Positions 33,617 through 64,000 of a stretch of DNA of 64,000 nucleotides are shown here, one piece after another (positions within the stretch are counted from its first letter, which is position 1; every line of letters begins with the position of its first letter). The notes beneath the pieces are model-generated. The model was not told where the DNA came from and did no database searches. It saw only the letters and a list, made by a program, of their open reading frames with translations. The translations under genes and the position numbers were made by a program. The DNA is taken from positions 67,688,354-67,752,353 of the forward strand of contig OY979717.1 of assembly GCA_963855995.1 (NCBI GenBank), read 5' to 3'. The DNA comes from Muricea muricata (taxonomy: Eukaryota; Cnidaria; Anthozoa; Malacalcyonacea; Plexauridae).

Positions 33617-34204
33617 GGTGGCCCAGGAATTGTGCGTGTAGTGACGTAATGTGCGTAGCAGTGACGTGTTATAATTATTACCATGGTTGGCAAGTGAATT
33701 TAAACTACAACGATGTATGCTTACAAAACTCATCAAATAACTAAAAAAACACGTCGGAAACCAAAAATCCAGAGAGATATTTGGTTCGGTATGCGTGAAA
33801 TATTTTCTGTGCTTTAAACTTTTACGTGTACCGCCGAAAACAATGAACTAGTAGTCTAACGAAAGTCAAACTCAACAAATTGTAATCATTTTATGTTGTT
33901 GTTATCTGAAACAAACTTGCTTTATGTCAACGGCATTTTATATATATTTTATATATATTTTATATATATTTTATATATATATATATATATTTTAGGTAAT
34001 ATTGTCGGCTTATTTTGAACGATTCGCTAACCCTTTATTGGTCAAAGCTGGGAATACGGTGTCAAACTTCTTTTTAATTTTCTATACTTATAATTTAATT
34101 TATTTAACTTTGCCAACTAAAATGCAACATTTTAAAGTAAATTTACAACAACAAATGATATATCTTACAATGGCAGGGTGTACACTACAGTTTTCATCAA
34201 TTAC
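33617..34204. other. Spacer with a TA-rich microsatellite
   Basis: The interval 33936-33993 is a 12-bp (ATTTTATATAT)-type tandem followed by (TA)n. No gene is supported. The frame 34002-34238 has no motif. Confidence 0.5.
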
Positions 34205-37630: not shown

Positions 37631-37679
37631 TTTCTGATTTTAAGAGAAAAAAAACTTATTTTAAGAAAATTTTCTTGGT

Positions 37680-39439: not shown

Positions 39440-39887
39440 TGTTCCGTCGGAGTTTTACGACTCTTTCGCAATGTAGTCAAACCCGGGATCGTATAGTTTT
39501 GATGCACTTATTTATTTCTTACTAAATGACTATTCGATCTAAGATTAAGTACAAAAAGGGTTTATGAGTATAAAGTATAAAGTAACAATATTATAAATGT
39601 ACATACCAAATGTTCGTGAGAATCTTCAAAGTTCTATATATACTTACTTCTTTGACGGGTTACTGGACAGACTACATTAATAACAGGTACAGGTTAGCAG
39701 AATAACAATTTAACTTTACTAGGTTAGCTTTTCCAGTAGGTCCTTTCGGCCGAAACTCTAATCTTATAACTAATAATCAGAACATGCATGCAATATATAT
39801 AAGTCAACTTGTAAATTGATACAGACGTCTTATCTAATTAAACATTAACAGGGGTTCGTAACTGTTACTTGAGTCTCTCACGAAACA
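39440..39887 (-). repeat. 3' LTR of the BEL/Pao element
   Basis: 448 bp from TGTTCCG to CGAAACA. It differs from the 5' LTR only near 39791-39803 (two bases). Confidence 0.95.
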
Positions 39888-39919
39888 CTCTCCCCCCCCC
39901 CCCCCCATGAGGGGTATTC

Positions 39920-42562: not shown

Positions 42563-44208
42563 TGTTTTGGTCGGGTGGTGTCCAGGTTTCTCCAGAGAAA
42601 ACGGTGAACATGTTGGTCTTCTTGTGGTATCAGCACTTGATGATACATCTTCGAAATATCACCAGATACTGCGACTGCATTCTCTCGAAACCGGAAAATC
42701 ACGCCAAATAAACTATTCAGTAGATCAGGGCCTTTCAACCAGTAGTCATTCAGACAATGTCCCTGATACACGGCGGATGAATTGAATACAATTCGGAGAG
42801 GGGTGCTTGCTTTCTCAGGACGTAGGACTTCGTGGTGGGAAACGTAATGCACTGGACCTTTGTAATTGTTGAGCTCTTCTTCAGTTAACTTTCGAGAATA
42901 GTTCATGTCGTTCATTTCAGTCATTTGCTTGTCGTAGGCTGTAGCGTGTTCGGGATGCTTAATTAATCTTCGTTCTGTAGATTCTAATCTTTTTACTGCT
43001 TGGAAACGATTATCTGGTAGCTGTTTCGGGTCCTTTTTCCATGGATAAGGTACTAGCCATCTATTTCCAACCTTTGTACATGACTTTTCTATAACGAGTT
43101 TCTCTTCATGTTCGACTTGACTTAATTTGTCCGGTTCGCACCGGCACTGTTGTACTTCTACACCCATCGACTCAGTTGTCCAAAAGTTGGTCAAATCAAC
43201 GGGCACAGCATACTTAACGTGAAATATCTTGTGAATCCTGTCCGTTTCTCCAGGCGCGGATCCAAAGACTACCCATCCAAGTGGCGAATTTCTTGCAACT
43301 AAATATCCTGTTTGTCTCGTCTCCCCGATATGCATAAATGCATGGTCGATGCCTATCAACAAATCGATACTGCCTTTCCCACGGTAAATTTGACTTTTTG
43401 TTAGCCGGAGACTGTCCGCAATCTTGTCGATCTTGATCTCTGTTACGTCATCACTAATGCACGCAATTCCCACTGCCGTTACAGAATACGTTTTACGGGA
43501 GTCTAACGAGGTAACAGGAACTTTGTACACCTTTGTCTTCACGTTTTCTTCTTCACCGCCAACTTTGGTTATTGTTATGGATGCATCTTTACCTTTCAAT
43601 CCAAGACTTTCTGCTGTTTCTTGCTTTATCAAACTTATTTGTGCACCACTATCGAACAAAACATTTCCACGCTTGTACAACTTCTTAGGACCACAGATTT
43701 TGGCGGAGATTATCGGGAGAAGTGCTTCTTGGTTTTCTTTGGTCAATGCAACACCTACATTTGCTTTGGTACTTTGGTGCAACAATGGGTGATGAAAGGA
43801 AGGGCATTGTTTACCATTTTCAATTACTGAACATTGTCTACGTCGACTACAGTTCGACATTCTGTGATCTCGTCCGGCTCGTTTTAGGCAACTAAAACAC
43901 ACGTGATTTTCTTTGGCAACATTGAGGCGATTATCGGGCTTAAGACCCGCAAATTTTTCACATTGATCGGGCCAGTGGAGAGAATTCTTGCAAAACCAAC
44001 ACTTATGTCGCGTATTGTCATTTCTTCTTTCATCCGTTGTCGTCAGGTGATAGATTGAACGATTACTACCACTTGTTCTTATCGGGACTGTTGCACGCAT
44101 TCGAGACTTCATTTCAATCGACATCCAATCAATCAAACCTTTCAACGATGCTGGTTTCTTATCTCTTTGCAGCTCTCGTGACCACACTTTCCGGTCATCG
44201 ACACACAT
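42517..44208 (-). CDS. pol: BEL/Pao zinc fingers, peptidase A17 and N-terminal RT
   Basis: 563 residues. Cysteine/histidine fingers are at 70-83 (CWFCKNSLHWPDQC) and about 104-126. The aspartic protease active site FDSGAQ is at 185-190, followed by the peptidase A17 region. From about 455 the RT fingers/palm begin (STPLRIVFNSSA, SGDISKMYHQVL, HRFLWRNLDT). It overlaps both neighbouring frames, consistent with one ancestral polyprotein. Confidence 0.9.
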   Translation of the reverse strand: MCVDDRKVWSRELQRDKKPASLKGLIDWMSIEMKSRMRATVPIRTSGSNRSIYHLTTTDERRNDNTRHKCWFCKNSLHWPDQCEKFAGLKPDNRLNVAKENHVCFSCLKRAGRDHRMSNCSRRRQCSVIENGKQCPSFHHPLLHQSTKANVGVALTKENQEALLPIISAKICGPKKLYKRGNVLFDSGAQISLIKQETAESLGLKGKDASITITKVGGEEENVKTKVYKVPVTSLDSRKTYSVTAVGIACISDDVTEIKIDKIADSLRLTKSQIYRGKGSIDLLIGIDHAFMHIGETRQTGYLVARNSPLGWVVFGSAPGETDRIHKIFHVKYAVPVDLTNFWTTESMGVEVQQCRCEPDKLSQVEHEEKLVIEKSCTKVGNRWLVPYPWKKDPKQLPDNRFQAVKRLESTERRLIKHPEHATAYDKQMTEMNDMNYSRKLTEEELNNYKGPVHYVSHHEVLRPEKASTPLRIVFNSSAVYQGHCLNDYWLKGPDLLNSLFGVIFRFRENAVAVSGDISKMYHQVLIPQEDQHVHRFLWRNLDTTRPKQCSRSEISLLQQWHK

Positions 44209-45161
44209 TTTTGCTCAATGATGGACAACATATGGCTGTTATCCATGTCGCTAGGTAATCCGACTTCTTTTAACGTGTTATAACAACGTCTGACTAAGTG
44301 AACTAACTCGCAAAATCGGGCATCTTCGCCTGGGCAGAGCGCCTTAAATTTGCCGATATCTTGGGTAATCGTGTCCGAAACATATCGTGGGTCCCCATAA
44401 ACAGAGTCAAGGTACTCCCACGCCGCGTCATAATCTGAGCCTATTCCTTTTATCAGCTCAAGTGGTTTGCCCTCGAGACATGTCCGTAAAAATGTCATTG
44501 CGTCGCGTTTACTATATCTCGCTTCTATTGCGTAACTGAAATCTGCACGGAAAATTGCGTATTCTCGTACATCACCGCTAAATTTTGGCATTTTAGGTTT
44601 TTCCATTTTAAAACTACACGTTTGATTCATGCTTTGTTCAGGTTGTTCATTCGCGTGACTAGCTGGAGTATGTTTAACAGAGGTGATAGGATCAGGAGCC
44701 TCGACCACGGGTGACGTATTTATAGCACTGCTTGGGGCAGTCTCGTACATATTTGGAATTCCATTGGAATTTTGCATGCTAGTTTCACCGTCCATTTTCT
44801 CTTCTAAATTCGAAACACTGTCACTAGTACATGCTTCTACGGTTATACTGGACTGTTGAACATTAATGACTTCTATCGCTTTACTTTCGATATACAATTT
44901 TGCCTTTGTTTCTAAATTCATGAACGTTTCCTGGCATTCTTCAAGCCAGTGTTCTTCTACAGTGAACGCTTCGTCATTCTCAATTAGACTCGCATATTCT
45001 TCATGCTTTACTACGAGATTGTCGTACGTTTGCTTATACAAAAGAAGAGATTGGCTTACCTCTTCTCGTGGCCGTCCTGCGTCGATCAAATGATTCACGG
45101 CTTTCCCAGCTCTGGTCAATGCGGCTTTCGAGGTGCGTCGATTCATTTTTGCGTTTTTCAT
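44142..45161 (-). CDS. gag: BEL/Pao Gag (DUF1759 type)
   Basis: 339 residues from an ATG 112 nt inside the 5' LTR. The N-terminal part (about 1-120) is helical. The DUF1759-type capsid region begins at MPKFSGDVREYAIFRADFSY and runs through EYLDSVYGDPRYV to about 315. The frame leaves this reading at an A5 run (44208-44212), where the next frame takes over. A 60-codon frame at 45158-45340 in the leader and LTR is probably not translated separately. Confidence 0.88.
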   Translation of the reverse strand: MKNAKMNRRTSKAALTRAGKAVNHLIDAGRPREEVSQSLLLYKQTYDNLVVKHEEYASLIENDEAFTVEEHWLEECQETFMNLETKAKLYIESKAIEVINVQQSSITVEACTSDSVSNLEEKMDGETSMQNSNGIPNMYETAPSSAINTSPVVEAPDPITSVKHTPASHANEQPEQSMNQTCSFKMEKPKMPKFSGDVREYAIFRADFSYAIEARYSKRDAMTFLRTCLEGKPLELIKGIGSDYDAAWEYLDSVYGDPRYVSDTITQDIGKFKALCPGEDARFCELVHLVRRCYNTLKEVGLPSDMDNSHMLSIIEQKCVSMTGKCGHESCKEIRNQHR

Positions 45162-45272
45162 CTTGCGTCGACGACTTCTGGCGCTGGCGCCGACGTTCCT
45201 TCGGTTTCGGGCATCACTTCTTTCGTAGAACCCCTCGGGACGACTTTTCTTGGCGATGTAGAAATCGAATGA

Positions 45273-45720
45273 TGTTCCGTCGGAGTTTTACGACTCTTTC
45301 GCAATGTAGTCAAACCCGGGATCGTATAGTTTTGATGCACTTATTTATTTCTTACTAAATGACTATTCGATCTAAGATTAAGTACAAAAAGGGTTTATGA
45401 GTATAAAGTATAAAGTAACAATATTATAAATGTACATACCAAATGTTCGTGAGAATCTTCAAAGTTCTATATATACTTACTTCTTTGACGGGTTACTGGA
45501 CAGACTACATTAATAACAGGTACAGGTTAGCAGAATAACAATTTAACTTTACTAGGTTAGCTTTTCCAGTAGGTCCTTTCGGCCGAAACTCTAATCTTAT
45601 AACTAATAATCAGAACATGCATGCAATACATATATGTCAACTTGTAAATTGATACAGACGTCTTATCTAATTAAACATTAACAGGGGTTCGTAACTGTTA
45701 CTTGAGTCTCTCACGAAACA
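45273..45720 (-). repeat. 5' LTR of the BEL/Pao element
   Basis: 448 bp, near-identical partner of 39440-39887. Confidence 0.95.
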
Positions 45721-47887
45721 AGCATGAAAATTCACTCCTTCTCTGACGCCTCCGAAAAAGCTTATTCTGTCGCTGTTTATGCTCGATACGAGTATCTGGA
45801 TGGATCATTCAGTTCACGCTTGGTAGCAGCCAAGGTTGCGCCACTAAAGACTATCAGCATGCCTCGCCTTGAATTAATGATGCGGTCATCAGTCTACGTC
45901 TAAGCAGACAAGTGTGTAAAGCGTTAGAGGTTCAGCTTCGAAAGGTGAATTTCTGGATCGACAGCATCAATGTGGGATATTCGATTCGAGGACAAAGCAG
46001 GAACTACAAACCATTCGTCGCACATCGCATTGGCGAAATCCACCAAGACTCTAATCCTGAACATTGGCGTCATGTTCCCGGGGCGTCTAATTCTGCTGAC
46101 TGTGGAACCCACGGTTTGACGGTCACTGAGCTGAAGATCAACGACTGTTGGTGGAGTAGACCGAAATTCTTGCAAGGTCCTCGAGAACACTGGCCAGAAA
46201 TGAAATTTGAAACCCCAGCATCAGAAGCGTTTGATAAAGTAAAACTTGCGAGTAGGAATAACGGAGCTTCCTTCATGGCAGAAAGGGAACATGTTGAGGA
46301 GAAGACGGAAGAATGGCGGTTTAACCTGACAAATTTCTCGAAGTGGTACGGAATCCTTAAACCAAAAGATTGGAATTTGGAAGGTCACTTGTCCGCGCGC
46401 GAGGATGGGTTCAACGATTCATTCAGAACTGCCTAAAATCAAAGGATCGATCGTGTATTCGGACAGTTGACACCAGACGATTTAAAACAACTGGAAGAGG
46501 CAATTATTAAAGAGGCTCAGATTGAAGCTTGTCGACAAGAATTCGATGCCCTGACAAACTCAAAACCGTTACCCAAATAGAGTAGTATATTAAATCTTAC
46601 CCCAATCATGAAAAAATGGACTGATGCGGTCAAACACCAACCAGGCTTCGTTACTCTAAAGATTTAACTGACGACGTAAAGAATCCTATCATTTTACCAA
46701 AGCGACACCCAGTAACCCAACTAATTGTGAAGCATCACCATGAAAGTGAAGGACACGTAATGAGCGTTAACTTCACGCTGAATCATCTTTGGGAACGTTA
46801 CATGGTTGTTAATGGCAGAGAGCTGCTAAAGCGTACTATAGTACGTAAGACGTGCGCCGAATGCTAGCGGCGGTTCATAGGGAAACCTTCCAGTCAACAG
46901 ATGGCACCTTTGCCGAAGATACGTTTAGCACTGACCATGAAACTATTAACTAACTGCTCTGTGGATTTCGCAGGACCGTTTCTTACTAAACAAGGACGTG
47001 GAAAGGCACGTATCAAACGGTATCTCTGCCTGTTCCTCTGTTTACAGACTCACCGTTGTCATCTTGAGATTGTTTGGTCCTTGGAATCTGACGGTTTTTT
47101 ACAGGCTCTTACGAGAATGGCTGCACGAAAAGGTTGGCAACGAGACATGGTTAGTGAGAACGGGACCAATTTCGTTGGTGGGAATAACGAACTCCGGGAA
47201 CTGGTTGATCAAATCGATCAAGCCAAAGTGGAATCTCTTACGTCTAATCAAGGAATCAATTGGCATTGGAGCCCGCCAGCATATCCTCATTTTGGTGGAG
47301 TGCTCGAGCGCAAAATTAAAGCAGCGAAACGTGCAATTAAAGCAATCTTAGGGAAGGCTGAAGTCAATGATGAAGAGTTAGAAACTACGATTATTGGCGT
47401 TGGAAGCTTAATCAACTCCAGACCCTTGACTCAAGTAAGTGAAGATCCGAACGATGACCCTGTTTTGACTCCAAATCATTTTCTCATCGGAAAAATGTGG
47501 CACCTGAAAGTGTGGATTATACTCAGTTTAACCCAAAGAAACGACGGAGATGTGTGCAACAATTAATCCGACAGACATGGCAACGCTGGATGCGAGAGTA
47601 CCTGACGACCCATGGTTCTCGCTCAAAATGGTACGAACAACAGGAGAACGTTAAGAAAGGTGATGTTGTGTTAGTGATTCATCCTAACGTGGCGAGACAC
47701 GATTGGAAATTGGGGATGATTGAAGATGTACTGTATATCCTGGCAAAGATGACATGGTTCGTGTGGTCGATGTTAGGGAAGGGGATAAAGTTTATCTTCG
47801 GTCAGTTGGACGCATTTCGCCATTGGAACTTGGGACAACGAACGAGACGGACAGAAAACGGTCCCTAAGGAATCTGGGAGGGGGAAA
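45721..47887 (+). pseudogene. Decayed Pao-type retroelement, right part (RNase H, integrase, DUF5641)
   Basis: It continues the left part: RNase H (KIHSFSDASEKAYS, then IGEIHQDSNPEHWRHVPGAS), integrase zinc region near 46720-46865, integrase core at 46901-47566 (NCSVDFAGPF, VSENGTNF, GGVLERK) and a DUF5641-like end (47497-47868). The second catalytic aspartate is Glu (SENG) and several stops interrupt the frame. A polypurine tract GGGAGGGGGAAA at 47876-47887 marks the 3' LTR boundary. Confidence 0.85.
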
Positions 47888-49478: not shown

Positions 49479-51767
49479 CGATCAAATCAAATCAAATCAA
49501 ATCAACTTTATTAACGAGGGTAAACGCATGACAGTAAAAACTGATAACCCAGCGGCCCTCCTAATTTAAATACAAAGTTAAGATATCAAAGTCAAAAGCT
49601 ACAAAAGTTATATAAATACAGTGTACATATAAATAACTATGATAGGAATTTTGATATAAAGTTCTAGAGAGAGTTTAAAGGTAGGTGACAGTCGCTAATG
49701 TAAACAAATGCTTTGTTTACATTTTGAGCTGCTATATTTGTAAAATTTGATTAGACTAACTGAATATCTGACACTTTTTGGGTTTGCTATGCTCCTAAAG
49801 GAATATAAACGAGCGTTTCAATTCAAAAAAGTTTTTAAAAACGCAAAATTTGGACAATGTGGTCCACATTTGTTATGAGCAGATTGGATACGCAAAAGCG
49901 ACTGTAACCTATCTTTAAAATACTTTAAGATGGACCATATCCTTTAAAATATTAGCACAGAAAGTTCTCAGAGATGTTTTAAAAATGTTTATGCTAGTGA
50001 TTGTCTTCAGTTCGAATGGAAAGCTATTCCAAAGTCTTGACATTCTGACTGAGAATGTCCGTCCACCTTCAGTTTCTCTAACGAAACGTGGGCAAACTAT
50101 ATTAATTGACCCATAACGACTTCGTTGATTGTCGATATCTGATTTTGTCCTCAAAGTTCCTTTAATGTAAGCCAGGCATTCGCCATAAAGACGTTTGTGA
50201 ACTAGAACACACATCTGAATTTTGATTTCACAAAAAAAAGGTAACCACTTGAACTTTTTAAAAAGCTCGATACTGTTCGCTTGTATATCAGCATCGAATA
50301 TCACCCTAGCAGCTTTTGAAGTCGCAAAACCCTTTCCAGATTCTCACGAGAGCACGCAGACCATACAATTGAGCCATACATCATCGGTTGTTTAATCATT
50401 GCGTTGCAATAGAGGATCCTTTGTTCGATGGGAAGAAAAGCCTTAATCTTTCATAAGACACCAATTCACTCTGACGACAGCTTATTGCAAAGGGTATCGA
50501 CATGTTCATTAAATGTCAATCTTGTATCAATCTTTAGTCCCAGCAAACTGAATACATCGACTTGTTCGATAGGTGTGTTGTTTAATTCAATTTGCAACTC
50601 CAAACTTAATTGCTATCTTTTATGCAGCCGTTTTCCTGTAATAAGCATCGACTTCGTCTTTTTTTCATTTAACGTCATGCGATTTCTGTTTGACCAAAGT
50701 TGTAGTTCATCCATATCCGTTTGGATGCCATTAGTTTTAGCTTGAGGCGATATATTGCAGTGGTCAGAGTAGCTGATTGTGATGTCGTCTGCGTATATAT
50801 CAGCAGTAGAATTTTTCAAAGCAGTTGGCAAGTCATTGTTGAATATTAGGAACAGCACAAGTCCCAATGTACTTCATTGTGGAACGCCAAAATTTCCATT
50901 TTCGAGCTTAGAATGGCATCCATTAACATTCACATACTGTGTCCGATCGCTCAGGTAACGCCAAAAAAAAGGAAGGCAATCCTCACCAACACCGAGTGAT
51001 AACAGTTTACGTAATAACAGTTGATGATCAATTAGATCGAATGCTTTCTTATAATCATTAAACGCAAGTCCAGAGACATTGTTTTGATCGAGATCCAATA
51101 AAAGTAGGTCTACAAGCCTTATTAATGCTGTTTCGGTGGAGAAGTCTTTCCTGAAACCGGACTAAAATTTATATAGAATGTTATTTCCATTGAGAAAGTT
51201 ATTCAGTGAGCGACAGATAAGTTTTTCCAACAATTTCGATAGAGTTGGGAGCCCTGATATTGGGCGAAAACATTCTTTCCCGTTTTTGCTTCCATTTCCT
51301 TTAAAAATCGGTGAAACTTTAGCTATTTTCCATCTTCTCGGGAAGACTTTCCTGGTCAAGCACAAATTTATAACTCTTGTAAGAGAGGGAACTATTGCGG
51401 GTGCAGCGATCTTAAGGATTTTTATACCTATTTCGAGATCATTAGCGGACCTGTCTATAAAGTATAAACTATTGAAAATATTCGCAATGCTAGTACTATC
51501 TGTTATCACAACATCGTTTTCAATAATCTGGGAAATTCGACTTTTATTTACGTCACCATCATTAGACAGACACTTGATCAGATTCCAAAGCTTACTTGAG
51601 TTATTCTTGTGTTCGGAAAATTTATCTTTGAAGTAGTTTTGTTTAGCATCTCTAATTAGATTAGTTACATTGTTTTTCACTTTCTTATAAGTATTCCAAT
51701 CAGTATCAGAATTACTCTTACGAGCTCTCTTTAATAATTTGTCGCGACGGTTTACCCTGTGGGATTA
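49479..51767 (-). pseudogene. 5'-truncated CR1/L2-like LINE
   Basis: On the minus strand: pre-RT and RT fingers (51680-51162, RKVFPRRWKIAKVSPIFKGN, FRPISGLPTLSKLLEKLI), palm (51098-50874, LAFNDYKKAFDLIDHQLLLR), catalytic IYADDITISY (50867-50613) and C-terminal part (50304-49915, RMSRLWNSFPFELK). Stops interrupt at two otherwise conserved places: TAG at 51163 and TGA at 50874-50876 inside the GVPQGS motif. The 3' end is a (TTTGA)n tail at 49480-49503, typical of CR1/L2 LINEs. Part of the region between fingers and palm is deleted. Confidence 0.85.
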
Positions 51768-51823: not shown

Positions 51824-53904
51824 CTAATTAAAATTAATAATATCTAGTTCTTAGTTCTCTTCGATACAGCGCGCAAAATAATGTCATCTTCGTGGCTTGC
51901 TATGATGAATTACATTGCTTAATACAAAGCGGTCAAGATGGTTGATGTTCAATATCACTGAACTAAATGCTGTCTAAATGTAAGTACGTGTGCTATTATC
52001 ACCACTTTTATTTGTATGTGATAATGTGAAATCATTATGAATTCATGAAGAAAACACACAAGAAATCATAATCGACAGGGGAAGGCATCGTACACGCAAG
52101 ACTTTGGAGTCTTGGCATACCGCTGTAACGAATAACGCTGACAATAACTCTATGTCACTTCCCAGACAACACACGATGCTTACAAAGAAAGACACACAAT
52201 ATATATATATATCACTAAGGGCAAGGCACGGTTATTATTATAAATATATTAGCACCACATGTAAATATACACTTATATCAGATTTCAAGCTACACCTCCC
52301 ATTTTAGCGTCCTTTGGACTTTATCATGTTATATGTAAACAGCGAGTTTGAGTGTTTCATCAGGGGATCCAAACACGAGAAAACGCTGTGAAACGTACAC
52401 GAGCGCGAAGAGCGAGTGTTTTATTAGGATCTCAATTATTAAATGAAAACCGTTTTTGATCTAACAACAGTGATGGTATATGATTTTTAGCGTGTTTCCT
52501 TGCGGTATCCAACGTCAATCATGTGACGAATTAGGGCGAGTTCATTCGCTAATTTGCTCATGAATTATTAATGAGTTTGAGATTTACCCATCGAAGGCTA
52601 TAGTCTGATAGCTGAAAGCTCGTATTAAAAATGAAAATAGATATTTTGAAGTCAGAGTGTCAAAGGAGTCGCGCCCATGCACGTTGTGTATCAAATATAC
52701 AACTCTAAGCCTTCAACTCGAGTAGTACGTATATCCTACGCGACACAGTCACTCATGAGTCATGTTGTGAATAGTACTTATACGTATATGACCTCTGTAT
52801 ATGACTACTCAGAATCTCAGATGACTACTGATAGCCCCAATAAATATTGCATTCCACGATGTTCCAACAATACCATTTACAAACGGTTATCCAGTTTGAG
52901 AACATTGACGCAATGTCTAAAGACGTCAATTGTTTATTGTGTTTATTGATGCACTTCAACTAAAAGATTGTCATATATGGGTGTCGAAATTTTCATGCGT
53001 CGAAACTGATACTGTATAGTACTAAACATTTGCGCTTGAACAGTGCTCGAACATGTGGCGAATCCAGCGTAACAGTCGGTGATACAGGATTTTAGCAATA
53101 ACACAAACTATATATAACTTACGAGCTCAATCTTACTCTGCGTGTAGCATATACCTATATAATTCAAGTAAAGTTAAGCATTTTTCACACCAGCGCTGAT
53201 GGAAAAATCCAATAATTTAGTTCACAGACACCTTTAAATTAGGCATGAAGTTTCGTTCATTTTGAAAACTTTTTTGTTCGAAATTTATCTTAACTAAATA
53301 ATATGTAACAAAAATCGATTTTACACGTACCAAGCATGCACAAACTAACATTAACATAAGATATGTATTTTTTATCTTATGAATGAATAAAGACATTTAT
53401 CATTATTATTATTATTATTTTAACTTAAAATTTGTCTGCGTGCTTTGGCAAGCGAAACATTGCAATTGTTGTTTTAAATCCCGCCATTCTCGTAACATGC
53501 AGGTAAATATACTGTAGGTTAGTGCAAAATGCCAACTTAATAAGTGATCTGTTTATGTATGAAGTTTGAAATATTTTACGGATCAGTATTCAGCTTTTAG
53601 ACACGACCTATTCTTTATAAATAATCATGTAGCCTCGCACAGTAGAGAAAAATTATGGTGAGCGTATATATTACTATTCAACGTTAACAAACGTCAATTT
53701 TTCCTCAAAAGGATGAGAAGAATGTAAAAATATTTGCGTTTACAAGGCATAAAGTTGAACAATGAAAATACAATACAACATATTGCTCGGTGAATCGCGA
53801 CTGGTTTGAACCATGTGAGACTTCCACAGTTGAAGGAAATTGTCTTCAAAATGACAACCACTGTAGAGGAGAGGTCAATATTAATGCACCGAGCCAATTG
53901 CATA
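51824..53904. other. Spacer, no gene recognised
   Basis: Contains (TA)n near 52200 and, at about 53385-53430, GAATAAAGACATTTATCATT followed by (ATT)n, which looks like the 3' tail of a decayed plus-strand LINE or SINE. The frame 52677-52949 has no motif. Confidence 0.4.
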
Positions 53905-54660
53905 ATAGCTAAATAATTTGAAAAAATCGAAATAGTGAAATTCATTGCCACAGATCATCCTAAAGGTTAGTGTAGCTGCGAAGTTTGGTTGTGAAATGTT
54001 GTAAAATACGTAAAATATAGCCTTGCAAAGTTTGCGAATTTTGTATACTTTTGTATTACGCACGCAAAATTGATACCACTATCCAAATTGTAGCCAGCGT
54101 GGCAAGCTCTTAGGGGAATAACGGAAAGAAGAGCCAGCCCGGAAGCCCGGGTAATTTTCATACATCTCAGCCGTGAGAGGCCGAGAATTGCGATTGGCCA
54201 GTTTCTCTTTGATTGGCATATTTTGGAGTAAGCGACAACATATTACAGTAATATTTACTGCCAATGTGGCCAGCTAACATATTTAGGTTGTTTACTTTGT
54301 TACATGTGTCCTAAAAATAGTTTCTTCCAACAAATTATGACAAAACATGTCATTTATATATTGCATAATTAGGAATGTGGGCGGTATGAAAATTACCCGG
54401 GCTTCCGGGCAGGCTCTTCTCTCCGTTGTTTTCCCAAGAGCCTGCCACGCTGGCTATCCAAATTGATACCACTAATACTATCCAGAAAGGTATCAATTTT
54501 CCGTGCGTATTAAATACAAAACTATACAAAATTCGCAAACTTTATACTGCTATATTTTTCACATTTTACAGCGTTTTGCAACCAAACTTTGCAGTTTTAG
54601 GATGCTCTTCAATGCTGTGTTAATACCATTTCGATTTTTTAAAAAAATGACTGTGTATTA
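53905..54660. mobile_element. Large palindromic MITE (family A, copy 2), interrupted
   Basis: The left arm (53905-54090: GAAAAAATCGAAATAG, GCGAAGTTTGGTTGTGAAAT, AATATAGCCTTGCAAA) and right arm (54457-54660, complementary) match copy 1 at 12750-13149. The centre has been split by a second element, 54091-54456. Confidence 0.6.
54091..54456. mobile_element. TIR element with 9-bp target duplication, nested in the palindromic MITE
   Basis: The ends TAGCCAGCGTGGCAAGCTCT and the complement of TAGCCAGCGTGGCAGGCTCT continue for about 75 bp of inverted repeat. The flanks carry the exact 9-bp duplication TCCAAATTG (54082-54090 and 54457-54465). It is 366 bp, non-coding. The duplication length suggests a MULE-like superfamily. 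Confidence 0.75.
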
Positions 54661-54680
54661 TGCAATCGTTCCATTGCTTA

Positions 54681-55041
54681 TACTGTAAACTTCCGAATAT
54701 AAGCCCAGGGCTTATATTGGTTCGTAAGCCTTTTTTGATGGGCTTATACACGGGCACGGGGGAGCTAATATACGGGGGGGGGCTTATATACGGACGAAAT
54801 TTGGTGTTACCGTGAACGAAAAGAAATATAAACCATAGTGTATAAACAACATTAAAATACAGTCAGTAACACATAATAACAAGCATTAATACATTAATGG
54901 TTATGGGCTTATATACGGGAGAGCTTATATTCGGGGGGGGGGGGCTTATATTCGGAATGGCCTAAGCGTTAGTGAAATGGTGGGCTTACACTTGGGGGAG
55001 CTTGTATTTGGGGGGGGCTTATAATCGGAGGTTTACGGTAT
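54681..55041. repeat. GGCTTATATTCGGGGG repeat element with TIR-like ends
   Basis: The ends TACTGTAAACTTCCGAATAT and the complement of TACCGTAAACCTCCGATTAT enclose repeated GGGCTTATATACGGG and GGCTTATATTCGGGGG units, with G runs of 7-12 at about 54773-54782, 54932-54944 and 55010-55017. There is no coding potential. The G runs could form quadruplexes. Confidence 0.6.
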
Positions 55042-55129
55042 TATACAATCTTTTCTGAAGTGCTTTGTCGTTTTGTCAAATTTCTTCCACCTGCCAGCCA
55101 GGCCCATACACATACGTTGTGGAAGCCCT

Positions 55130-55800
55130 GAAATGGCTTTGGGTAATGTAGGTGGAATTAGATTGAGTTTAAATCCACGTTTACTTGAAAGAGATTGAAA
55201 CTCGACTCGCTACTAGGGGTGTTTACCGGAATTTGGATTAAGTTTCAATCCATATTTACCTGAAAGAAATTGAGTTAGAACTTTCAAAACAATAGCAATA
55301 GATGCTCCGGGCTTAGGACTTAGGGGCTGAAATATCACAGTAAATCAAAATCTCATTCCAGATTGAAACTGGGCTGTCTATTTGGGGTATTTACATGAAT
55401 CCGGATTAAGTTACAACTCATTCCGGTTTGAGTTCATTCCTCTTTTCATTCCAGATTGAACACGCGATGCGGAATGGAATGTTGTCCCTGAAACATGTAA
55501 ATGTGGATCGCGATTTCACTCTACAATGAGACTCGGTATGATACTGACGTCTATTACGGGCAAAATTAGGATATTTTGCAAAATGAAGAGTTTTATTCAC
55601 GTGCTAAATGTATAAGAGGCTAAAATCGCCGTAAAAATAATACAGGGTCAGTGCATGGTATGGAGCGAGTGTCAATATGGAATGAGATTTTTATTTACCA
55701 CAATGTCTCAAGACTTAATTCAATCTCTTATATAAACACGGATTGAATTTGAAGTGTAATTAGGGATTGAAATTCGATCCAGATTCATGTATAGACACTA
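55130..55800. repeat. Degenerate GGATTGAATTTCAATCC-type array
   Basis: Units such as GAGATTGAAACTC, GGATTAAGTTTCAATCC, CATTCCAGATTGAA and TTTACATGAA recur in both orientations, with a TAGGGGTGTTTACC-type block at least twice. This is another short-unit foldback-like array. The exact ends are unclear. Confidence 0.45.
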
Positions 55801-56914
55801 CTATTTCGCCCACTCAGCCGTTCATATAGGACGTGAATGAAGCTTCCTATTTTACAAGAAACAATTTGGACTCTACGGATTATAATGCACTCAGATGTTC
55901 GGTGTTCTGATGTCTTTATTTTGTATAATCATCCATCATATTTCTTTCAATAATCTTTTTGAATTAATTTATGAATTTTTCACTGCGTTGACGGCGGATA
56001 TTCAAGCAGATTCTCAAGTGGGAATCAACACACATGTCGAAATTCAAGCCGGGAACAGAAAAATTAATCATCAACTATATGTTCTATACATTTTTCAAAA
56101 ATGGCGTTTATAGTGAATTTTGTAACATCAAGTGTTATCTATTGTTTAACTTCAATTCATAATCGAAACTTTTACATTCCTAACGTATTGAAACTCGAAA
56201 TTTGTGATCGTTTTCAATAATTGGTTTACAGTTTGCTGAATTTCTCCGTCTATGAATATAAATATATTCAACAATTTTTCAAAATCGATAAATATGAAAA
56301 TTATTTACAAGTGAATCACTCTGACTACACAAACTTCAGGCACTGCGATTTGTATTAAAAAAAATTGCAAAGGAACTAATTACTAATATATCATAATATA
56401 TATTACTGTTAAAAAAAATCAACTGGCCTTAATTATGTCCGTGACTGTAAGGAGTGAGATTTAACTACCTGGCTGAATTTGGGTATTTTCCAAAGCAACA
56501 GAAATATTTGGGCAAAACATCGTCACTTCATAACTTATGAATGTCCAATTCTGCTAATTGAGTAAATGTCTCTTGTGTTCACGTTTAATTAATGCATACT
56601 ATACCAGCAGTTAAATAATTTGATACATACTTTACAAACAATTTTGCTGTTACCATTGATGACGATATAGGGGAAAATAATAAAATGGGGGATGAGCTAA
56701 TTGAAAGCACATGCAATTAACAGTACCCCTACTCAAGTCGGGAACTTTCAAGTGCGCGTCTGTACATGAACATACACCGAATATTTTTTTGTACTATGTA
56801 CAGCGCGTCAACCTTGGATTACCTTTTATTTATACGCACTGTATGTATTTTTTAGCGATATAGAATAACAATAGAATATTAGTCCCGAGGGATATGTCTA
56901 GCAGTATTAAACGA
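55801..56914. other. Spacer, no gene recognised
   Basis: AT-rich. The frame 55895-56113 has no motif. Confidence 0.35.
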
Positions 56915-56924
56915 TCAACAATGA

Positions 56925-58597
56925 GGCCCTGTTAGGGGGTCTTGAATATACCTTATACCTATTATAAAGAGGTCATTTATACCTTATACCTAAAATAGCA
57001 GACACACTTATACCCAAAAGTATCGGGGGGTGAGGCGGAATTTTTGAACTTAAGAATTCCGAATTCCTTTGAGTGAAACTGAAAAAATTCCGTATTCCTG
57101 TTAAGACGGTTCAAGACCCCCTAACAGGGCCTCATTGTTGGTGATAGCTTAATTCGTATTAAGACCGAAGCCCGAGACCTTGGTGCTATTGTGGACGAAA
57201 ATCTCTCTTTAAAGAGTCATGTTAATTCAATCTGTAAAACAGCTTATATTGCTTTGAGGAACATTGGCATGATACGGAAATACCTTGACCAATCGACTGC
57301 GGAGCGTTTGCTTCATGCTTTTTGTCACAACGCGTCTTGATCATTGCAACAGTCTCCTCTATGGGCTTCCACAACGTGAAATTGAGAAACTACAACATGT
57401 ACAAAATACAGCCGCTAGAATTGTGACCAGGTCAAACAAAAGAAAGCATATTACCCCCATTTTGAAAGAACTTCATTGGCTTCCTATACAAAGCCGTATC
57501 AAATTTAAACTCGGGCTAATAACATTTAAAGCTGTAAACAGTCTTGCTCCATCTTATATTCGGGACATTCTGAAAATTCATAAGCCTTCGCGGTGCCTAA
57601 GATCTGCTTCTAAAAATTTACTGGAAGAACCTAGGACGATAACGAAAACGCACGGAGATAGAACATTTAGGATGGCTGGTTCGGTGGTTTGGAATAGTCT
57701 TCCTGATGAATTGAGACTTGAGACATCAATTAATATTTTTAAAAATAAACTTAAGACTTTCCTTTTTAATCAAGTTTATAGTTAGTTTTTAAGTTTTCTA
57801 TATCAGGTTTTTATTACATAATTTTACTGTACATATTATTAATAATTTAGTTATACTATTGTAATGAGCATTGAGAATTTTTATAAATGCGCATTTAAGA
57901 AATAAATTATTATTACTATTTTACTAAAAAATTCCTTATTACTCATTTAAATTACAAAATTCTGTATTCCGATCAAGCACACAAAATTCCCAGTTCCGTT
58001 GCGTAGGAAACAAAAAAATTCCGTATTCCCGGGTGAAAAAAAGAAAAATTCTCCATTCCAAAATTCTGCGTCACCCCCCGAAAAAGTATCCTGGCCAGCA
58101 ACTCTTGTTTTCTTTTTTGTTGCGTTGTACACTATTTCACCCCTTGCAAAAACATTTACCGGGTTGTTTTCATTCTTTGGACATCAGCTGTGACACCTGT
58201 GAATTTAGAGAGTCATTTTGCTCGAAGTTTCCAGTGTAGAAGCGAGAATGTGACAGTTTAAGTGCAACTATAATCTGAAAAGCATGTAGCAGTAACCCTT
58301 ACCTTTAGCAGATTTTATATTCTCACAAATACCGCCGTGGAACTTCAACTCTGCAAATTCAGGTTGAGGCTGTCGAGATATTAGAAGCGATCAGTATTGG
58401 TAACTATTGACAAATAAATGCTCCCAAATGCTTCGAATAGCTGACACAAAATGTCTTGTGATCAGTTTTTGTTATACCTAAAAGTATAACGCCAGTGATC
58501 ATTTATACTTTATACCCAAAAGTCTATCGTTATTTATACTTTATAACTAAAATACTTTGGGTAAATATACCTTATACCTAAAACCCCTAACAGGGCC
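56925..58597. mobile_element. TIR element with 10-bp target duplication, containing a LINE fragment
   Basis: The ends GGCCCTGTTAGGGG (56925) and its complement (to 58597) are flanked by the exact 10-bp duplication TCAACAATGA (56915-56924 and 58598-58607). Subterminal TATACCTTATACCTA, TCGGGGGGTGA and AATTCCGTATTCC blocks recur in inverted order at both ends, so the inverted repeats are long and degenerate. An extra inverted copy of the left end, including part of the target site, lies at 57110-57140. A LINE fragment follows at once. The 9-10-bp duplication is MULE-like. Confidence 0.7.
57141..57925 (+). pseudogene. 5'-truncated LINE, RT C-terminal part
   Basis: It starts within the RT region (GDSLIRIKTEARDLGAIVDE near 57143) and, after one frame break near 57330, continues at 57337-57785 with TTRLDHCNSLLYGLPQREIE, LKELHWLPIQSRIKFKLGLI and RMAGSVVWNSLPDELR. 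These are the typical C-terminal motifs of jockey/CR1-type elements. An AATAAATTATTATTACTATT tail follows at about 57900. The truncation point is immediately next to the inverted TIR copy at 57110-57140. Confidence 0.8.
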
Positions 58598-58607
58598 TCA
58601 ACAATGA

Positions 58608-59065
58608 CGTAGAACACCATTCGAGGCATTCTCTCAAGCCAACAACACTAATTCTCTTGCTTTAACTATGTAGATCAATTACTTGCTGTAATGTGTAATT
58701 GCTATATCTGATGCCACGGCAACAAAGAGATGCCCACTTCCTGCGTACTTCTGCCTTGTGTATGAAGTTTAGCTAGAAAATAATTATCAACGTCACGAAG
58801 TAAGGATATAAAGCACAATTCGTCCAAATACATGTCTATAACTAAGGACGCCCCTCAGCAACAAAGCTTTCGGAAATTATGCTGAAATCCTGCTCATAGC
58901 TTATAAACATTAGGAAATTAATTCTTATTCTGTATTCTGTAACCTTAAAACTGGAGGCAATAAGTATAATATGAACACAACCTCAGTTATAATAAAAATT
59001 CATCATTGAAAGATAATTAATGAATGATAGACGCAATAAGTTCAGCATGTTCTCTGCTTTTCTTT
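58608..59065. other. Presumed 5' intron of the TPR-CHAT gene
   Basis: No repeat recognised. It ends in a pyrimidine-rich tract TTCTCTGCTTTTCTTTAG (59050-59067), a good 3' splice site seven bases before the start codon, so a non-coding first exon should lie further upstream. Confidence 0.5.
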
Positions 59066-59073
59066 AGATCACA

Positions 59074-61764
59074 ATGGATTACGAAAAGAACATAGACTAT
59101 CTCAAAAAATGTTTAGAAGCTAGCACTGCCAATCGTGACCCGCTGGATATAGCAAAATTCAGTGACCTTCTGGGCGACGTTTATTACAGTACAGGGAAGT
59201 ATGAAACGGCTATTAAGTACTATAAAAAAAGTTTAGAAATTTGCAGTGAAATTGGAGATTTGTCAGGAAGAATAAAAAGAAATTTGAATTTAGCCAATAC
59301 TCACTTTAAATTATCTCAATACCATCCTGCCATAAAATATTCTAAAACAAGTTTAGAAATAGGTTCTTATTGTTGCATTGGAAAGTATAAAGAAGCAATT
59401 AACTGCTTCGAAGAAGGTTTAAAAATAAGCACCGCCATTGGGGATCAGTCAGGAAAAGCAAGTAACAATAGCAACTTAGGCAATGCCTATCGAAATTTGG
59501 GAGAATATCAAAAAGCAATTCAGTGTTATGAAAAAAGTTTAGAAATAAGCACTGCCATTGGCGATCGGTCAGGAATAGCAAGTATCAATGGCAATTTGGG
59601 CAATGCTTATTTTAGCTTGAGGGAATATCAAAAAGCAATTCAATATTATGAAATAGGTTTTGAAATAAGCACTGCCATTGGCGATCAGACAGGAATAGCG
59701 AATAACAATGGCAATTTGGGCAATGCCTATCTCAGCTTGGGAGAATATCACAAAGCAATTCAGTATTATGAAAAAGGTATAGAATTAAGCACCGCCATTG
59801 GGGAACGGTCAGCAATAGCAAGCAAGTATGGCAATTTGGGCAATGCCTATCTCACGTTGGGAGAATATCAAAAAGCAATTCAGTATTTTGAAAAAGGATT
59901 GGAATTAAGCACCGCCATTGTGGATCAGTCACGAATAGCGATTAATAATGGCAATTTGGGCAATGCCTATCGAAATTTGGGAGAATATCAAAAAGCAATT
60001 CAGTATTCTGAAAAAGGTTTAGAAATAAGCACCGCTATTGGGGGTCAGTCAAAAATAGCAAGCATCAATGGCAATTTAGGCAATACCTATCTCAGCTTGG
60101 GGGAATATCAAAAGGCAATTCAGTATTATAAAAAAGGTTTAGAAATAAGCACCGCCATAGGGGCTCAGTTAGAAATAGCAAGTAGCAATGGAAGTTTGGG
60201 CAACGCGTATCTTCATTTAGGAGAATATAAAGACGCATCGTCACATCTAGAGGACGCAGCTAGACACTTCGATAAAATCTTTTTAAAGTTTGTTCCGGAT
60301 CGACATAAACTGTCCTTTATTACACAGTATTTTAAAACTCATCGTCTTTTAATGAGTTGTTTTCTTTCTCTGGAACGGGACAAATCGGCGTTGTTGGTCA
60401 TTGACCTTGGTAAAGCTAAGGAGCTGCATTTCTGCATTGAAAGAAGTAAAAATCGTGCGGACGCGGAAATGAAAGATTTTTCAGTTACGACATGGAATAG
60501 AATCAGAGCCTTTGAGGAAGAAATGGAAATCCAGGAAATTCAACAAACTCTGCACACGGAGCAAAATGATACTTCGATATTGATATTTGCATTTGACTAT
60601 AAAGGGTTTCTTAATATCTGGGTATTAAACGAAGGTTTTGTATTCAGAAAGATTGATGCTCCAAGCGAAGCAATCTTTCGATTGATGGTAGAACTTCTTG
60701 GAGTGGTAAATGTTAACGTCGATCGTAACTCGTCGTTTCAAGAAAATACTTTCAATCAGGTTAATGATCCCTTATGTATCTCAAGTCGAAAACCACAACC
60801 TATAGGTGAGGTTGGAAAAAAATCTAATACTTGTGGTCATCAGGAAATATTATTTCAACTCGTGATTGATCCTGTAAAGAATTCCCTAAAAGGTAACAAG
60901 CTTATCATTGTACCTGATCAATTCTTGTTTTTTGCTCCGTTTTCTGCTTTGGTTGATGCAAACGGCTGCTTTCTCTCTTCTAAATACAGCATTCAAATTA
61001 CACCTTCTTTGCATACCTTGAAGGCAAGTATGCAACGAGAACATGACCCAAACATTGGGTTTGCATTGCTTGTTGGTAATCCAACTGCTGAAAGAATTTC
61101 TTTTAACGGAGAAGAGTTTAATCCCCTACCTGGAGCCGCTGAAGAGGTAAAATATCTTTCCAATCTTTTCCAAGATGCTCCTTTATTGGGACGCGCGGCG
61201 AGAAAACATGTAGTTCTGCAACTTCTTAGTAAGGCTAGTATAATCCATATCGCTGCCCATGGAGAATCAAACAGAGGGGAAATAATACTTGCCCCGAACA
61301 CTTCTCATGACCAGCTATGCTCGCCTGTTGCAAACCCAGAATTATTCCTACTTACACAGGAAGATATTACAAATATTTCAGTGCAAGCTCGCTTAGTAGT
61401 TTTATGTTGTTGTTATACCGGACAAGGTAAAGTTTCTTCAGAAGGTGTCATCGGTATAGCTCGATCATTTCTTGCCGCAGGAGCTCGCTCTGTTCTTGCC
61501 GCTATGTGGCCTATTAATGACTGGGGAACAATGGAGTTGATGAAAAAGTTATACGAAGAACTCTTCCTGGAAACACCAGTTTGTGAAGCTTTAAGAAGGG
61601 CCAAGAACTTCCCCGTCGAACACGAGAACAAAAATTTTCAATCAATCAGAATGTGGGCTCCATTTACCATTTATGGAGAAGACGTGAAATTTGAAAAGCA
61701 AGAGATTGAAGAAATAAGGAAGAAATCTCGCGAAATGTTTGATGGTTTCGTTGTACTACCCTAA
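59074..61764 (+). CDS. TPR-CHAT protein (TTC28-like): TPR array plus caspase/separase-like CHAT domain
   Basis: 896 residues in one coding exon. The start is the first ATG after a splice acceptor at 59066-59067. Residues about 28-97 hold two diverged TPRs and 98-109 a shortened unit. Residues 110-389 (59401-60240) are seven near-identical 40-residue units with NLGNAYLSLGEYQKAIQYYE. Residues 390-600 link them through a helical stretch. The CHAT domain, about 600-870, has LIIVPDQFLFFAPFSAL (610), PLPGAAEEV (684), HIAAHGE with H729, and VVLCCCYTGQG with C780, the expected catalytic pair of this clan CD peptidase family. TPRs would bind a partner and CHAT would cleave a target; both roles are inferred from the family. 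No signal peptide or membrane segment is seen, so it should be cytosolic. The gene is intact, unlike everything around it. Confidence 0.92.
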   Translation: MDYEKNIDYLKKCLEASTANRDPLDIAKFSDLLGDVYYSTGKYETAIKYYKKSLEICSEIGDLSGRIKRNLNLANTHFKLSQYHPAIKYSKTSLEIGSYCCIGKYKEAINCFEEGLKISTAIGDQSGKASNNSNLGNAYRNLGEYQKAIQCYEKSLEISTAIGDRSGIASINGNLGNAYFSLREYQKAIQYYEIGFEISTAIGDQTGIANNNGNLGNAYLSLGEYHKAIQYYEKGIELSTAIGERSAIASKYGNLGNAYLTLGEYQKAIQYFEKGLELSTAIVDQSRIAINNGNLGNAYRNLGEYQKAIQYSEKGLEISTAIGGQSKIASINGNLGNTYLSLGEYQKAIQYYKKGLEISTAIGAQLEIASSNGSLGNAYLHLGEYKDASSHLEDAARHFDKIFLKFVPDRHKLSFITQYFKTHRLLMSCFLSLERDKSALLVIDLGKAKELHFCIERSKNRADAEMKDFSVTTWNRIRAFEEEMEIQEIQQTLHTEQNDTSILIFAFDYKGFLNIWVLNEGFVFRKIDAPSEAIFRLMVELLGVVNVNVDRNSSFQENTFNQVNDPLCISSRKPQPIGEVGKKSNTCGHQEILFQLVIDPVKNSLKGNKLIIVPDQFLFFAPFSALVDANGCFLSSKYSIQITPSLHTLKASMQREHDPNIGFALLVGNPTAERISFNGEEFNPLPGAAEEVKYLSNLFQDAPLLGRAARKHVVLQLLSKASIIHIAAHGESNRGEIILAPNTSHDQLCSPVANPELFLLTQEDITNISVQARLVVLCCCYTGQGKVSSEGVIGIARSFLAAGARSVLAAMWPINDWGTMELMKKLYEELFLETPVCEALRRAKNFPVEHENKNFQSIRMWAPFTIYGEDVKFEKQEIEEIRKKSREMFDGFVVLP
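59401..60240 (+). repeat. Seven tandem 120-bp units encoding TPRs
   Basis: The units start at 59401, 59521, 59641, 59761, 59881, 60001 and 60121 with no indels between them. All share AATAAGCAC(C/T)GCCATTG-like and GGGAATATCAAAAGCAATT-like blocks with only scattered substitutions. The near identity at DNA level suggests recent unit duplication or gene conversion. Confidence 0.9.
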
Positions 61765-62231
61765 CGTTAGACGCGAGCATATCCCAGCATCGTCAATGGA
61801 CAGCGTTATAGCCATCGTCATGCCTCTTAAAGACTTTGTATTGTTGGCTTTGTGGATAAATCGCTGAATTAATAGCATCGTTGTTAGAATAGTTAAAATA
61901 GTATAAATCGGTATTAGGAAATATTTCTAACACAGCACTACATCGTCTTTATTGTATTTACGTTGCTTTAAGTGATAAGATAGTTAAACGATTCGTAGTC
62001 GTCGAGTCGTTAATTCATACTGTCTTTTCCAGTTCGCCACTACCATTTCTAATTATAAATACATTGTAATTATAACCATCGCAATGTATCTTAAAGGCTT
62101 TGTAAATATTTTTATCCCTTAATGACTTAGGTCATAGTTGGAATACTTAAAATAGCATCAGGCGGAATAAGGGAAATCTTTAACACAAAATTCGATCGTC
62201 TCTGTCGTATTAAAGTTACTTTAAGTGATAG

Positions 62232-62282
62232 AATAAACGATTCATAATTGTTGAGGTAACGTTTTACGTGACTCTTAATAAA
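62232..62282 (+). promoter_or_regulatory. Candidate polyadenylation signals of the TPR-CHAT gene
   Basis: AATAAA occurs at 62232-62237 and 62277-62282, about 470-515 bases after the stop codon, the first such hexamers downstream. The 3' untranslated region would then be about 0.5 kb. Confidence 0.4.
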
Positions 62283-62289
62283 CTTGTTT

Positions 62290-64000
62290 GCCAGAGGCTC
62301 TTTTCCAGTTGCTAAGGAGAGAAGGTTCGCATTCCAAGCTTGCCAAATAAAATAGTGAAAGATCTATTTGGTTTAAGTTAATTAGCTCGAGTTAGTTGCA
62401 CCAGGCAATGGAAAAATCGGCAATGACAATGACTGATGCTAAAACTGACTATTAACTTTTTAAATCGTTGAATGATGGGAAACTGTAGAATAGTACAGAA
62501 TCATTAGACATATATTTAGATTGTTTGGTTGTTGTTTTCACCAATTGCATAAGCAGGGTAAAATATGAAACAGGGGGAATATGAAAAAAAATAGCTGGAT
62601 ATTCTATAGGATACCTTAAAATGAGCTGCAGAATTCTTGCTTCATGCAATAGTGAGCTTACTCATTATTTGATGAAAAAAAAACGTAGTTGAAAATTATC
62701 GCGATTTTTAGTTGTTAGAAACTGTGTAGGAAGTAGTCTTGCTGTACGTTGCTAAATAAGAGCTGCAGAATGCACGAGAAAGAAATATAGGTACTGAAGT
62801 ATAGCTCAATTTTACTTTGTGAGTTTTTGTCCTAGTGATGTGGAAAATCAGATCCTTATTATAGTCGTACAAATTTACCAAATTTGTTAAAAAAGCAAGA
62901 AGATTACAGGAAGACATAATTCTGGTAAGTAAATCCTAGTCCCTAAAACGGATATTTCCAGATATATTTTCTGCACACTTTCAGTCGCAGAAAATTACTT
63001 AAAATCACGGTTAAATTAAAACGATCTTCAGACAAAAAAAGCGAAAGACCATAGAAATATATATGGCTTGGAAATCTGAACTACATGCGGATCCAGCTGT
63101 GCGCCAGCAACTATTCGATCTGTTCTCGTTTCACTTAACGTTGTAAACTCTATTGTATAACTGAATGCTGCTAATGTACTAATATTAATATTATCTTATC
63201 ATTTCAATGTGGTTGTCAACGAATGATAGAGTATTTGCTGGCTGTCAAAACTTATCTGGTCGAAACAACGTTGCAGAAAACCTGGTAGAAATTTGTGTCA
63301 AGATAAAAAACTTTTTCATGTGAAATTCTTTGAATTTATCTTGTTTTCCTTACAACAAGCTAACCATTGACGTGTCTATTGGTTTAATTAACTCCGGGTA
63401 AAGATAAATTCAATTATTTATGTGGATTTAAATTTCGCTCATAAATTTATGTGGATTGATTTAATGCTGCTATCGTTGTTCCTTTAGATATTTCCGAGAT
63501 TTATAGTAGTTGATATTAGTATTGATATCAGACACTATAGTCTCGAATTAACAACTCAAAGAAAGTCTACGTAAACTGGACTGACAAAAATTGACCAACG
63601 CTTCAATGGTGTCAATATTTTGTGTTGTGAAAGACGATATTGAGAAAAGCTTTCAAATGACATCCTTGGTTGGAAAATGAAACTAGATGCAAAATGCACT
63701 TGTTTTTGTTGGCATTCATTTTTTTGTACAAGTTTTTAAAGACCTTCTTTGAGCGATAGAACGAGGAAGACTTAATTTTTTACTTCTAATACAGAAATCA
63801 CATCAAAGTATGCAACACATACAGTCGAGTAGTTAAGTATTTGAGAAACAAAAACATTGAACAACATTTTGTAACGTGCGTGGTGGAAGATCGACGATGG
63901 AAGAAAACATATGGAGCAAGCAGTAACATCATATGATAGGATCACTATCTTGAAATGGAAACAGAACTCATTTGAAAACGTTCAACACGGACAGCAGACA
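62290..64000. other. Spacer to right edge, no gene recognised
   Basis: AT-rich. The minus frames 62452-62649 and 62708-62917 have no motif, and no repeat ends were seen. Confidence 0.35.

Follow-up and report, generated by a model that had tools for sequence, protein, structure and literature searches.

In this study, which was based on a 64-kb stretch of DNA (referred to below as the window), we found that the frame at 59074-61764 on the forward strand is a real and probably functional gene of a known, expanded animal family. It encodes a protein in which several TPRs are followed by a single CHAT domain. The explanation that we prefer, which we hold with about evenly balanced confidence, is that of a host gene of an anthozoan, in all likelihood a coral, from the lineage-expanded, TTC28-like TPR-CHAT family that would act as a sensor-gated protease switch. 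The observations on which it is built are the frame, the domains, the match of the predicted fold, the alignment of the catalytic dyad, the tandem array and the past constraint on the TPR units.

Results

The first-pass annotation had described an uninterrupted 2.7-kb frame, and this was found to be correct: a single frame of 896 codons runs without an internal stop from the ATG at 59074 to the stop codon at 61762-61764. The frame is not a product of chance, since the longest stop-free run in 200 first-order Markov sequences, which were built from the ORF's own dinucleotides and read in six frames, was 193 codons. As evidence of selection, however, its openness is weak in this window, because the longest stop-free stretch, 912 codons at 39920-42658 (-), is also open and is a BEL/Pao retroelement frame. 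The earlier view that every other long frame in the region is decaying did not hold, given this frame, whose element has identical end repeats, and the 736- and 490-codon frames of a Ty3-type element. Selection, which had been deduced from the openness of the frame and two kept residues, does not follow from them when a retroelement frame is equally open.

The BEL/Pao element lies at 39440-45572 (-) and was assigned by its Pfam matches (Peptidase_A17, DUF1759 and DUF5641). Its direct end repeats, 39440-39739 and 45273-45572, are identical over at least 300 nt, which marks it as a young element; the coding part is spread over three overlapping frames, a layout that may reflect decay or may be natural. 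To our knowledge, BEL/Pao elements are known only from animals, by which the host would be an animal. As judged by eye, the young element is seemingly nested in an older, broken BEL/Pao element at about 37665-47868 (+), three forward-strand pieces of which gave no Pfam match at 1e-3. The Ty3-type element, at approximately 23243-27801 (-), has end repeats that are 98% identical over 133 nt, and its frames carry reverse transcriptase, RNase H and integrase, and a gag-like part. A large MITE-like hairpin, whose 190-nt arms are 84% complementary, was seen at 12754-13144, and 113 nt of it recur 41 kb away, at 53963-54075, with 82% identity; another hairpin was seen at 397-686 (136-nt arms, 88% complementary). 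Reverse-transcriptase-like fragments at 57273-57785, 49915-50343 and 51162-51764 appeared LINE-like by eye, and the first and third of these gave no Pfam match at 1e-3. The stretch at 28801-32400 had a CpG observed/expected ratio of 0.24-0.33 in 2.7-kb windows compared to a median of 0.94 for the window as a whole, and is perhaps a methylated gene body or an old repeat. The window had no Rfam match at the gathering scores and no tRNA.

These surroundings bear on the origin of the ORF. Its CHAT domain is like cyanobacterial ones and tblastn matched it to cyanobacterial plasmids, with 27-36% identity among the matches listed, from which a bacterial contaminant or a recent bacterial gene might be suspected. 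However, all 201 tblastn records were below 60% identity, the ORF is surrounded by BEL/Pao and Ty3 elements in largely non-coding DNA, a splice-acceptor-like site precedes it, and the GC content at its third codon positions (0.326) fits the local base composition; we therefore consider a bacterial origin of this kind extremely improbable. The CpG observed/expected ratio of the ORF, 0.80, was close to that of the window, 0.91, and was uninformative.

The acceptor-like tract, TTTTCTTTAG, occupies 59050-59067 (+), with 13 of 15 pyrimidines ahead of the AG, and its terminal TAG is also an in-frame stop preceding the ATG. Among the 3335 AG sites on the forward strand, only seven, including the one at 59067, reached a score of this height and had a pyrimidine directly preceding the AG. 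The putative exon would start at 59068, with the ATG 6 nt after the acceptor-like site and in a good Kozak context (A at -3, G at +4). Based on this site and the context of the ATG, the ORF looks like a real last exon that holds the whole coding part, with an upstream intron in the 5' untranslated region, rather than a retrocopy; alternatively, a coding exon further upstream may join it in phase 0. A retrocopy was considered and rejected in view of the acceptor-like site, and the marks around the ORF, one shared 10-mer and A-runs of 8 and 9, did not amount to a convincing poly(A) tail or target-site repeat. In the 7 kb upstream (52069-59067, three forward frames), no Pfam domain was found at E <= 0.1, and no adaptor domain that would indicate a TRADD-N or death-domain fusion was found in the same frames, a search that very short exons, or exons at a greater distance, could escape. 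Downstream, three AATAAA hexamers at 62232, 62277 and 62346 (62232-62351, +) are possible polyadenylation signals, and the A(A/T)TAAA motif as such was not enriched there (five occurrences against 4.7 expected at the rate of the window). About 200 nt just 3' of the stop codon, likely 3' untranslated region, were tandemly duplicated with 69% identity (61806-62006 and 62070-62255).

No credible second TPR-CHAT copy or fragment was found in the rest of the window (tblastn E values of 1.4 and 9.5; blastn E values of 0.041 and 0.14). The best match outside of the ORF, at 33873-33935, covered little more than LCCCY, had stops nearby and no CHAT context, and reads as chance. When up to two mismatches were allowed, the junction sequence around the ATG had a single occurrence in the window, which means that there is no second copy of it nearby.

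The N-terminal part is a TPR superhelix (59080-60288, +), which was defined by Pfam TPR_12 and the AlphaFold helices from residue 3 to 405. TPR_12 matched eight stretches with 299.5 bits against a cut-off of 30.1, and the protein has about ten TPR hairpins before the CHAT domain, whereas TTC28 reportedly has 25 TPR units, going by the title of Izumiyama 2012. The DNA at 59410-60228 (+) is a coding tandem array with a 120-nt unit in 6.8 copies at 83% matches (direct repeat family D1). Ahead of it, at 59350-59379 (+), is an irregular TPR in which, according to the unit positions and the model helices (83-93 and 98-101), one helix is cut down to residues 98-101. The units that start at residues 72 and 134 are spaced by 62 residues instead of the regular 80, and thus 18 residues (54 nt) are missing from one TPR near residues 93-102, so that the gene cannot be called intact in the strict sense, as had been proposed. 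Across the six 40-residue units, 20 of the 40 positions were variable, the most variable being position 34 (five residues), followed by 31 and 38 (four each) and 7, 8, 19, 23, 33 and 37 (three each). Positions 7 and 8 presumably point to the concave side in the usual TPR register, and their variability fits partner choice only loosely. The TPR part resembles the LGN/GPSM2 spindle-orientation proteins well, and the best stretches of the three PADLOC models that matched at E <= 0.001, of which a pair bear the name TPR and the third is called "oxidoreductase", all fell in this part.

Evidence of selection was obtained from the repeats themselves. For the six neighbouring TPR units (residues 134-373), pS was 0.312 and pN 0.122, which gives a pN/pS of 0.39 (bootstrap 95% 0.23-0.63). 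In 300 neutral simulations, the median pN/pS was 0.81 and the minimum 0.40, and none was as low as the observed value, which indicates that the TPR units were under constraint while they were diverging. A degenerate seventh unit was excluded from this test; with it, the pooled pS was 0.439 and pN 0.238. The simulation assumed a star tree and exchange can homogenise the units, and for these reasons the pN/pS is historical evidence that concerns only the TPR part.

The C-terminal part matched the Pfam CHAT domain (PF12770) at residues 593-869 (60850-61680, +) over profile positions 7-289 of 289, with E = 8e-53 and 180.2 bits against a cut-off of 24. The protein thus has the TPR-CHAT architecture of several TPRs and then one CHAT above the Pfam cut-off, and the earlier description of it as an animal-type TPR-CHAT protein was confirmed for both domains. 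The catalytic positions that had been named, H729 (codon 61258-61260, +) and C780 (61411-61413, +), were also numbered correctly: the family profile places them on residues H585 and C627 in a TPR-CHAT chain of solved structure, the residues being counted on the alignment. These two residues are named as the catalytic dyad of this bacterial protein (PMC9729208), where their separation falls from about 7 A to about 3 A, and the HGE motif at the histidine is common to both proteins. This placement is an indirect check on the refuting condition set in the first-pass annotation, a fold in which H729 and C780 lie far apart. H725, G730, T782, G783, W812, D816 and W861 are also kept.

The dyad was present in seven of seven plasmid-borne CHAT sequences that were chosen from the 201 tblastn records and in each of 80 genome loci, a count that is partly circular because the loci were found by patterns containing H or C. 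These loci were the best 80 of 549 confirmed bacterial loci that the alignment query matched in genome contigs, and the count includes L009, L025, L029, L030, L047 and L080, which have internal stops or unknown letters. The same query had no match in viral contigs, single-protein scans of viral and genome contigs found no relatives of the ORF protein, and phage records had no CHAT match at E <= 0.01. Alignment A3 comprised 44 of 46 loci chosen by length (L025 and L030 out); A4 comprised 65 of 71 loci (L009, L025, L030, L047, L075 and L080 out), with L075 being omitted by hand and with no stated criterion. Alignment A5 comprised 62 of 72 listed loci plus L005 and L006; L010, L015, L020, L037, L039, L040, L045, L058, L075 and L076 were omitted from it by hand, likewise with no stated criterion.

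The immediate surroundings of the cysteine differ from those of the relatives. C780 is preceded by C778 and C779 and followed by Y781, while residue 778 is S in 63 of 64 relatives (S778C), residue 779 is A in all 64 (A779C) and residue 781 is D or E in 62 of 64; these counts lean on the sample, since the pattern by which the loci were found allowed S/C, A/C and D/Y/E. In the seven plasmid sequences found by tblastn, A occurred in seven, S in six and D or E in five. The aligned CHAT chains of solved structure, which are of two kinds, read GACE and AACE at this site, with A ahead of the cysteine and E behind it. The bacterial-type surroundings of A before and D/E after the cysteine are thus absent from the ORF protein, which has CCCY. 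Of 46 positions at which the other 64 sequences are conserved to 90% or more, the CHAT part retains 38, which is the third lowest value of the 65, the ORF being the sole animal sequence among them; T728A, L795I, L811M and F826L are mild departures. Together, the short TPR and the altered residues near C780 show wear or remodelling of the gene.

AlphaFold modelled the whole protein with a pLDDT of 84.4 and a pTM of 0.83, and residues 337-896, which include CHAT and the linker, with values of 84.0 and 0.87. The helical linker between the TPRs and CHAT (residues 385-494; 60226-60555, +) was delimited on the analogy of the Csx29 activation region. A Foldseek search with residues 337-896 returned 34 matches at E <= 0.001, in which chains of Csx29/Craspase came first in the PDB (E 4.5e-13), human separase followed from rank 12 (1.4e-10), and axonemal central-apparatus chains were also included. 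Csx29 and separase, which had been proposed for comparison in the earlier annotation, were therefore among the best solved matches of this model. The whole protein gave 412 matches; the leading ones were the CHAT protein DdvA, LGN TPR domains and separase, and Csx29 first appeared at rank 16. The query-normalised TM-scores were at most 0.54 among the matches listed and the rmsd was large, which is to be expected when multi-domain chains differ in their pose. On the basis of these models, the caspase/separase-like fold was the right assignment.

Discussion

The predicted protein fits the TTC28-like TPR-CHAT family, which is expanded in corals. This expansion is already in print (PMC12314368, PMC9145168, PMC6208414): there are 276 and 304 TPR-CHAT genes in two Acropora genomes, the counts in the surveyed corals range between 6 and 362, and Nematostella has 15 (PMC12314368), and the family was found to be expanded in Montipora, where it was named TTC28-like (PMC9145168). 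By the published description (PMC12314368, PMC9145168), the coral proteins have an N-terminal TPR array and one C-terminal CHAT, as here, with a variable TPR length (31-3347 aa for the TPR part in Acropora tenuis; PMC12314368) and a transposon-rich setting, also as here. In Acropora, non-syntenic regions are reported to abound in TPR, CHAT and transposons, to which BEL elements are added in A. tenuis (PMC12314368); the surroundings of the ORF would accordingly suit a coral. The main text of that paper uses neither "catalytic" nor "protease", and the dyad kept in the ORF protein is information beyond it.

Such a setting would also suit a young functionless duplicate, i.e., one of many coral copies, tandem or ectopic, that is open merely through its recency. 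The weakness of openness as evidence beside an equally open retroelement frame, the TPR that is 18 residues short and the retention of only 38 of the 46 near-invariant CHAT positions agree with this explanation, as does the resemblance to the Acropora regions as published. On the other hand, the acceptor, the Kozak context, the full-length CHAT and the dyad are all kept, several of the CHAT departures are mild, and the window holds no credible second copy or fragment. We consider this duplicate quite unlikely.

A different function must be weighed as well. TTC28 (TPRBK), which was considered in human and zebrafish, is the human counterpart named for the family; the human protein has the same domain order as the ORF protein (PMC9145168), and TTC28 is described in cytokinesis and microtubule dynamics (PMC12132318) and not in proteolysis. 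The ORF protein could accordingly be a TTC28-like scaffold, whose TPRs would take hold of cytoskeletal or cell-cycle partners and whose CHAT would be a structural part or the remnant of a dead protease; the likeness of the TPR part to LGN/GPSM2 and the altered residues beside C780 point the same way. However, the dyad should be among the first things that a dead domain loses, and here both of its residues are kept together with the further positions named above; moreover, hundreds of coral copies would be unlike a housekeeping scaffold. This alternative is improbable in our judgement, yet it stays a real one, because TTC28 is an animal relative with known biology that acts on microtubules and is not described as cleaving proteins.

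The protease reading draws on better-characterised relatives. Csx29 of the type III-E CRISPR system (Craspase) shares TPR, CHAT and the aligned His-Cys dyad with the ORF protein; it uses H615 and C658, and its double alanine mutant no longer cleaves (PMC10028731). The same source reports that the catalytic residues shift their position when the eighth TPR changes and that the acidic residue after the cysteine helps to hold the cysteine in active Csx29 (PMC10028731), whereas the ORF protein has a Y there. The ORF protein is not itself a Csx29 by the NCBIfam model NF041237, on which it scored 23.7 bits against a cut-off of 300, and neither Cas7-11 nor CRISPR would be expected at a locus of an animal. 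Separase likewise has a caspase-like protease domain behind a helical superhelix and its fold match was significant, but the identity over the fold alignments was 10-14% and no link to securin or cohesin was seen. Four plasmid-borne cyanobacterial TPR-CHAT proteins were 32-38% identical to the ORF in CHAT with the dyad kept; they mostly have SAC(D/E)T around the cysteine, in contrast to CCCYT in the ORF protein. Among the matches listed from the open-licence literature, no paper on the catalytic activity of an animal CHAT-domain protein besides separase was found.

If the ORF is a sensor-gated protease switch, transcription would start from an upstream non-coding exon, which would be spliced to the single 2.7-kb coding exon in an anthozoan host. 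The TPR superhelix would bind a partner or ligand, the bound state would be relayed via the helical linker to CHAT, and the H729/C780 pair might then cleave a specific substrate, as was shown for Csx29. The 120-nt tandem repeats would permit unequal exchange that makes the TPR array longer or shorter and alters its face, and by such reshaping, duplicates may come to bind different partners. A role in stress or immunity may be envisaged, and an immune or cell-death role, which the earlier annotation had put forward, is among those proposed in print for the family: roles in apoptosis or bleaching were suggested for the coral family (PMC6208414), the fusion of TRADD-N to TTC28-like TPRs ties the TPR part to conflict systems (PMC8195603), and a TTC28 gene was tabulated under the establishment and maintenance of symbiosis (PMC10363134). 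Moreover, in a heat experiment with bacterial inoculation of Pocillopora, 56 TTC28-like genes were differentially expressed, mostly downwards with the added bacterium (PMC10668361).

A more far-reaching idea, which we regard as doubtful, is that corals possess, in their hundreds of TPR-CHAT genes, a repertoire of sensor proteases inside the cell, whose TPR arrays would each be tuned to a different cue by repeat exchange and would fire CHAT for cell death, gasdermin cleavage or symbiont expulsion. They would then be an animal counterpart of bacterial CHAT defence beside the NLRs, and the ORF would be a working receptor with an altered cysteine pocket. The question for the family is testable, and 59074-61764 adds one data point to it: with its dyad kept, a good fold model and the CCCY pocket, the ORF offers a concrete protein for asking whether the coral copies are proteases. 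If they are, they would make up an uncharted class of regulated proteases, which might matter for immunity, cell death and bleaching.
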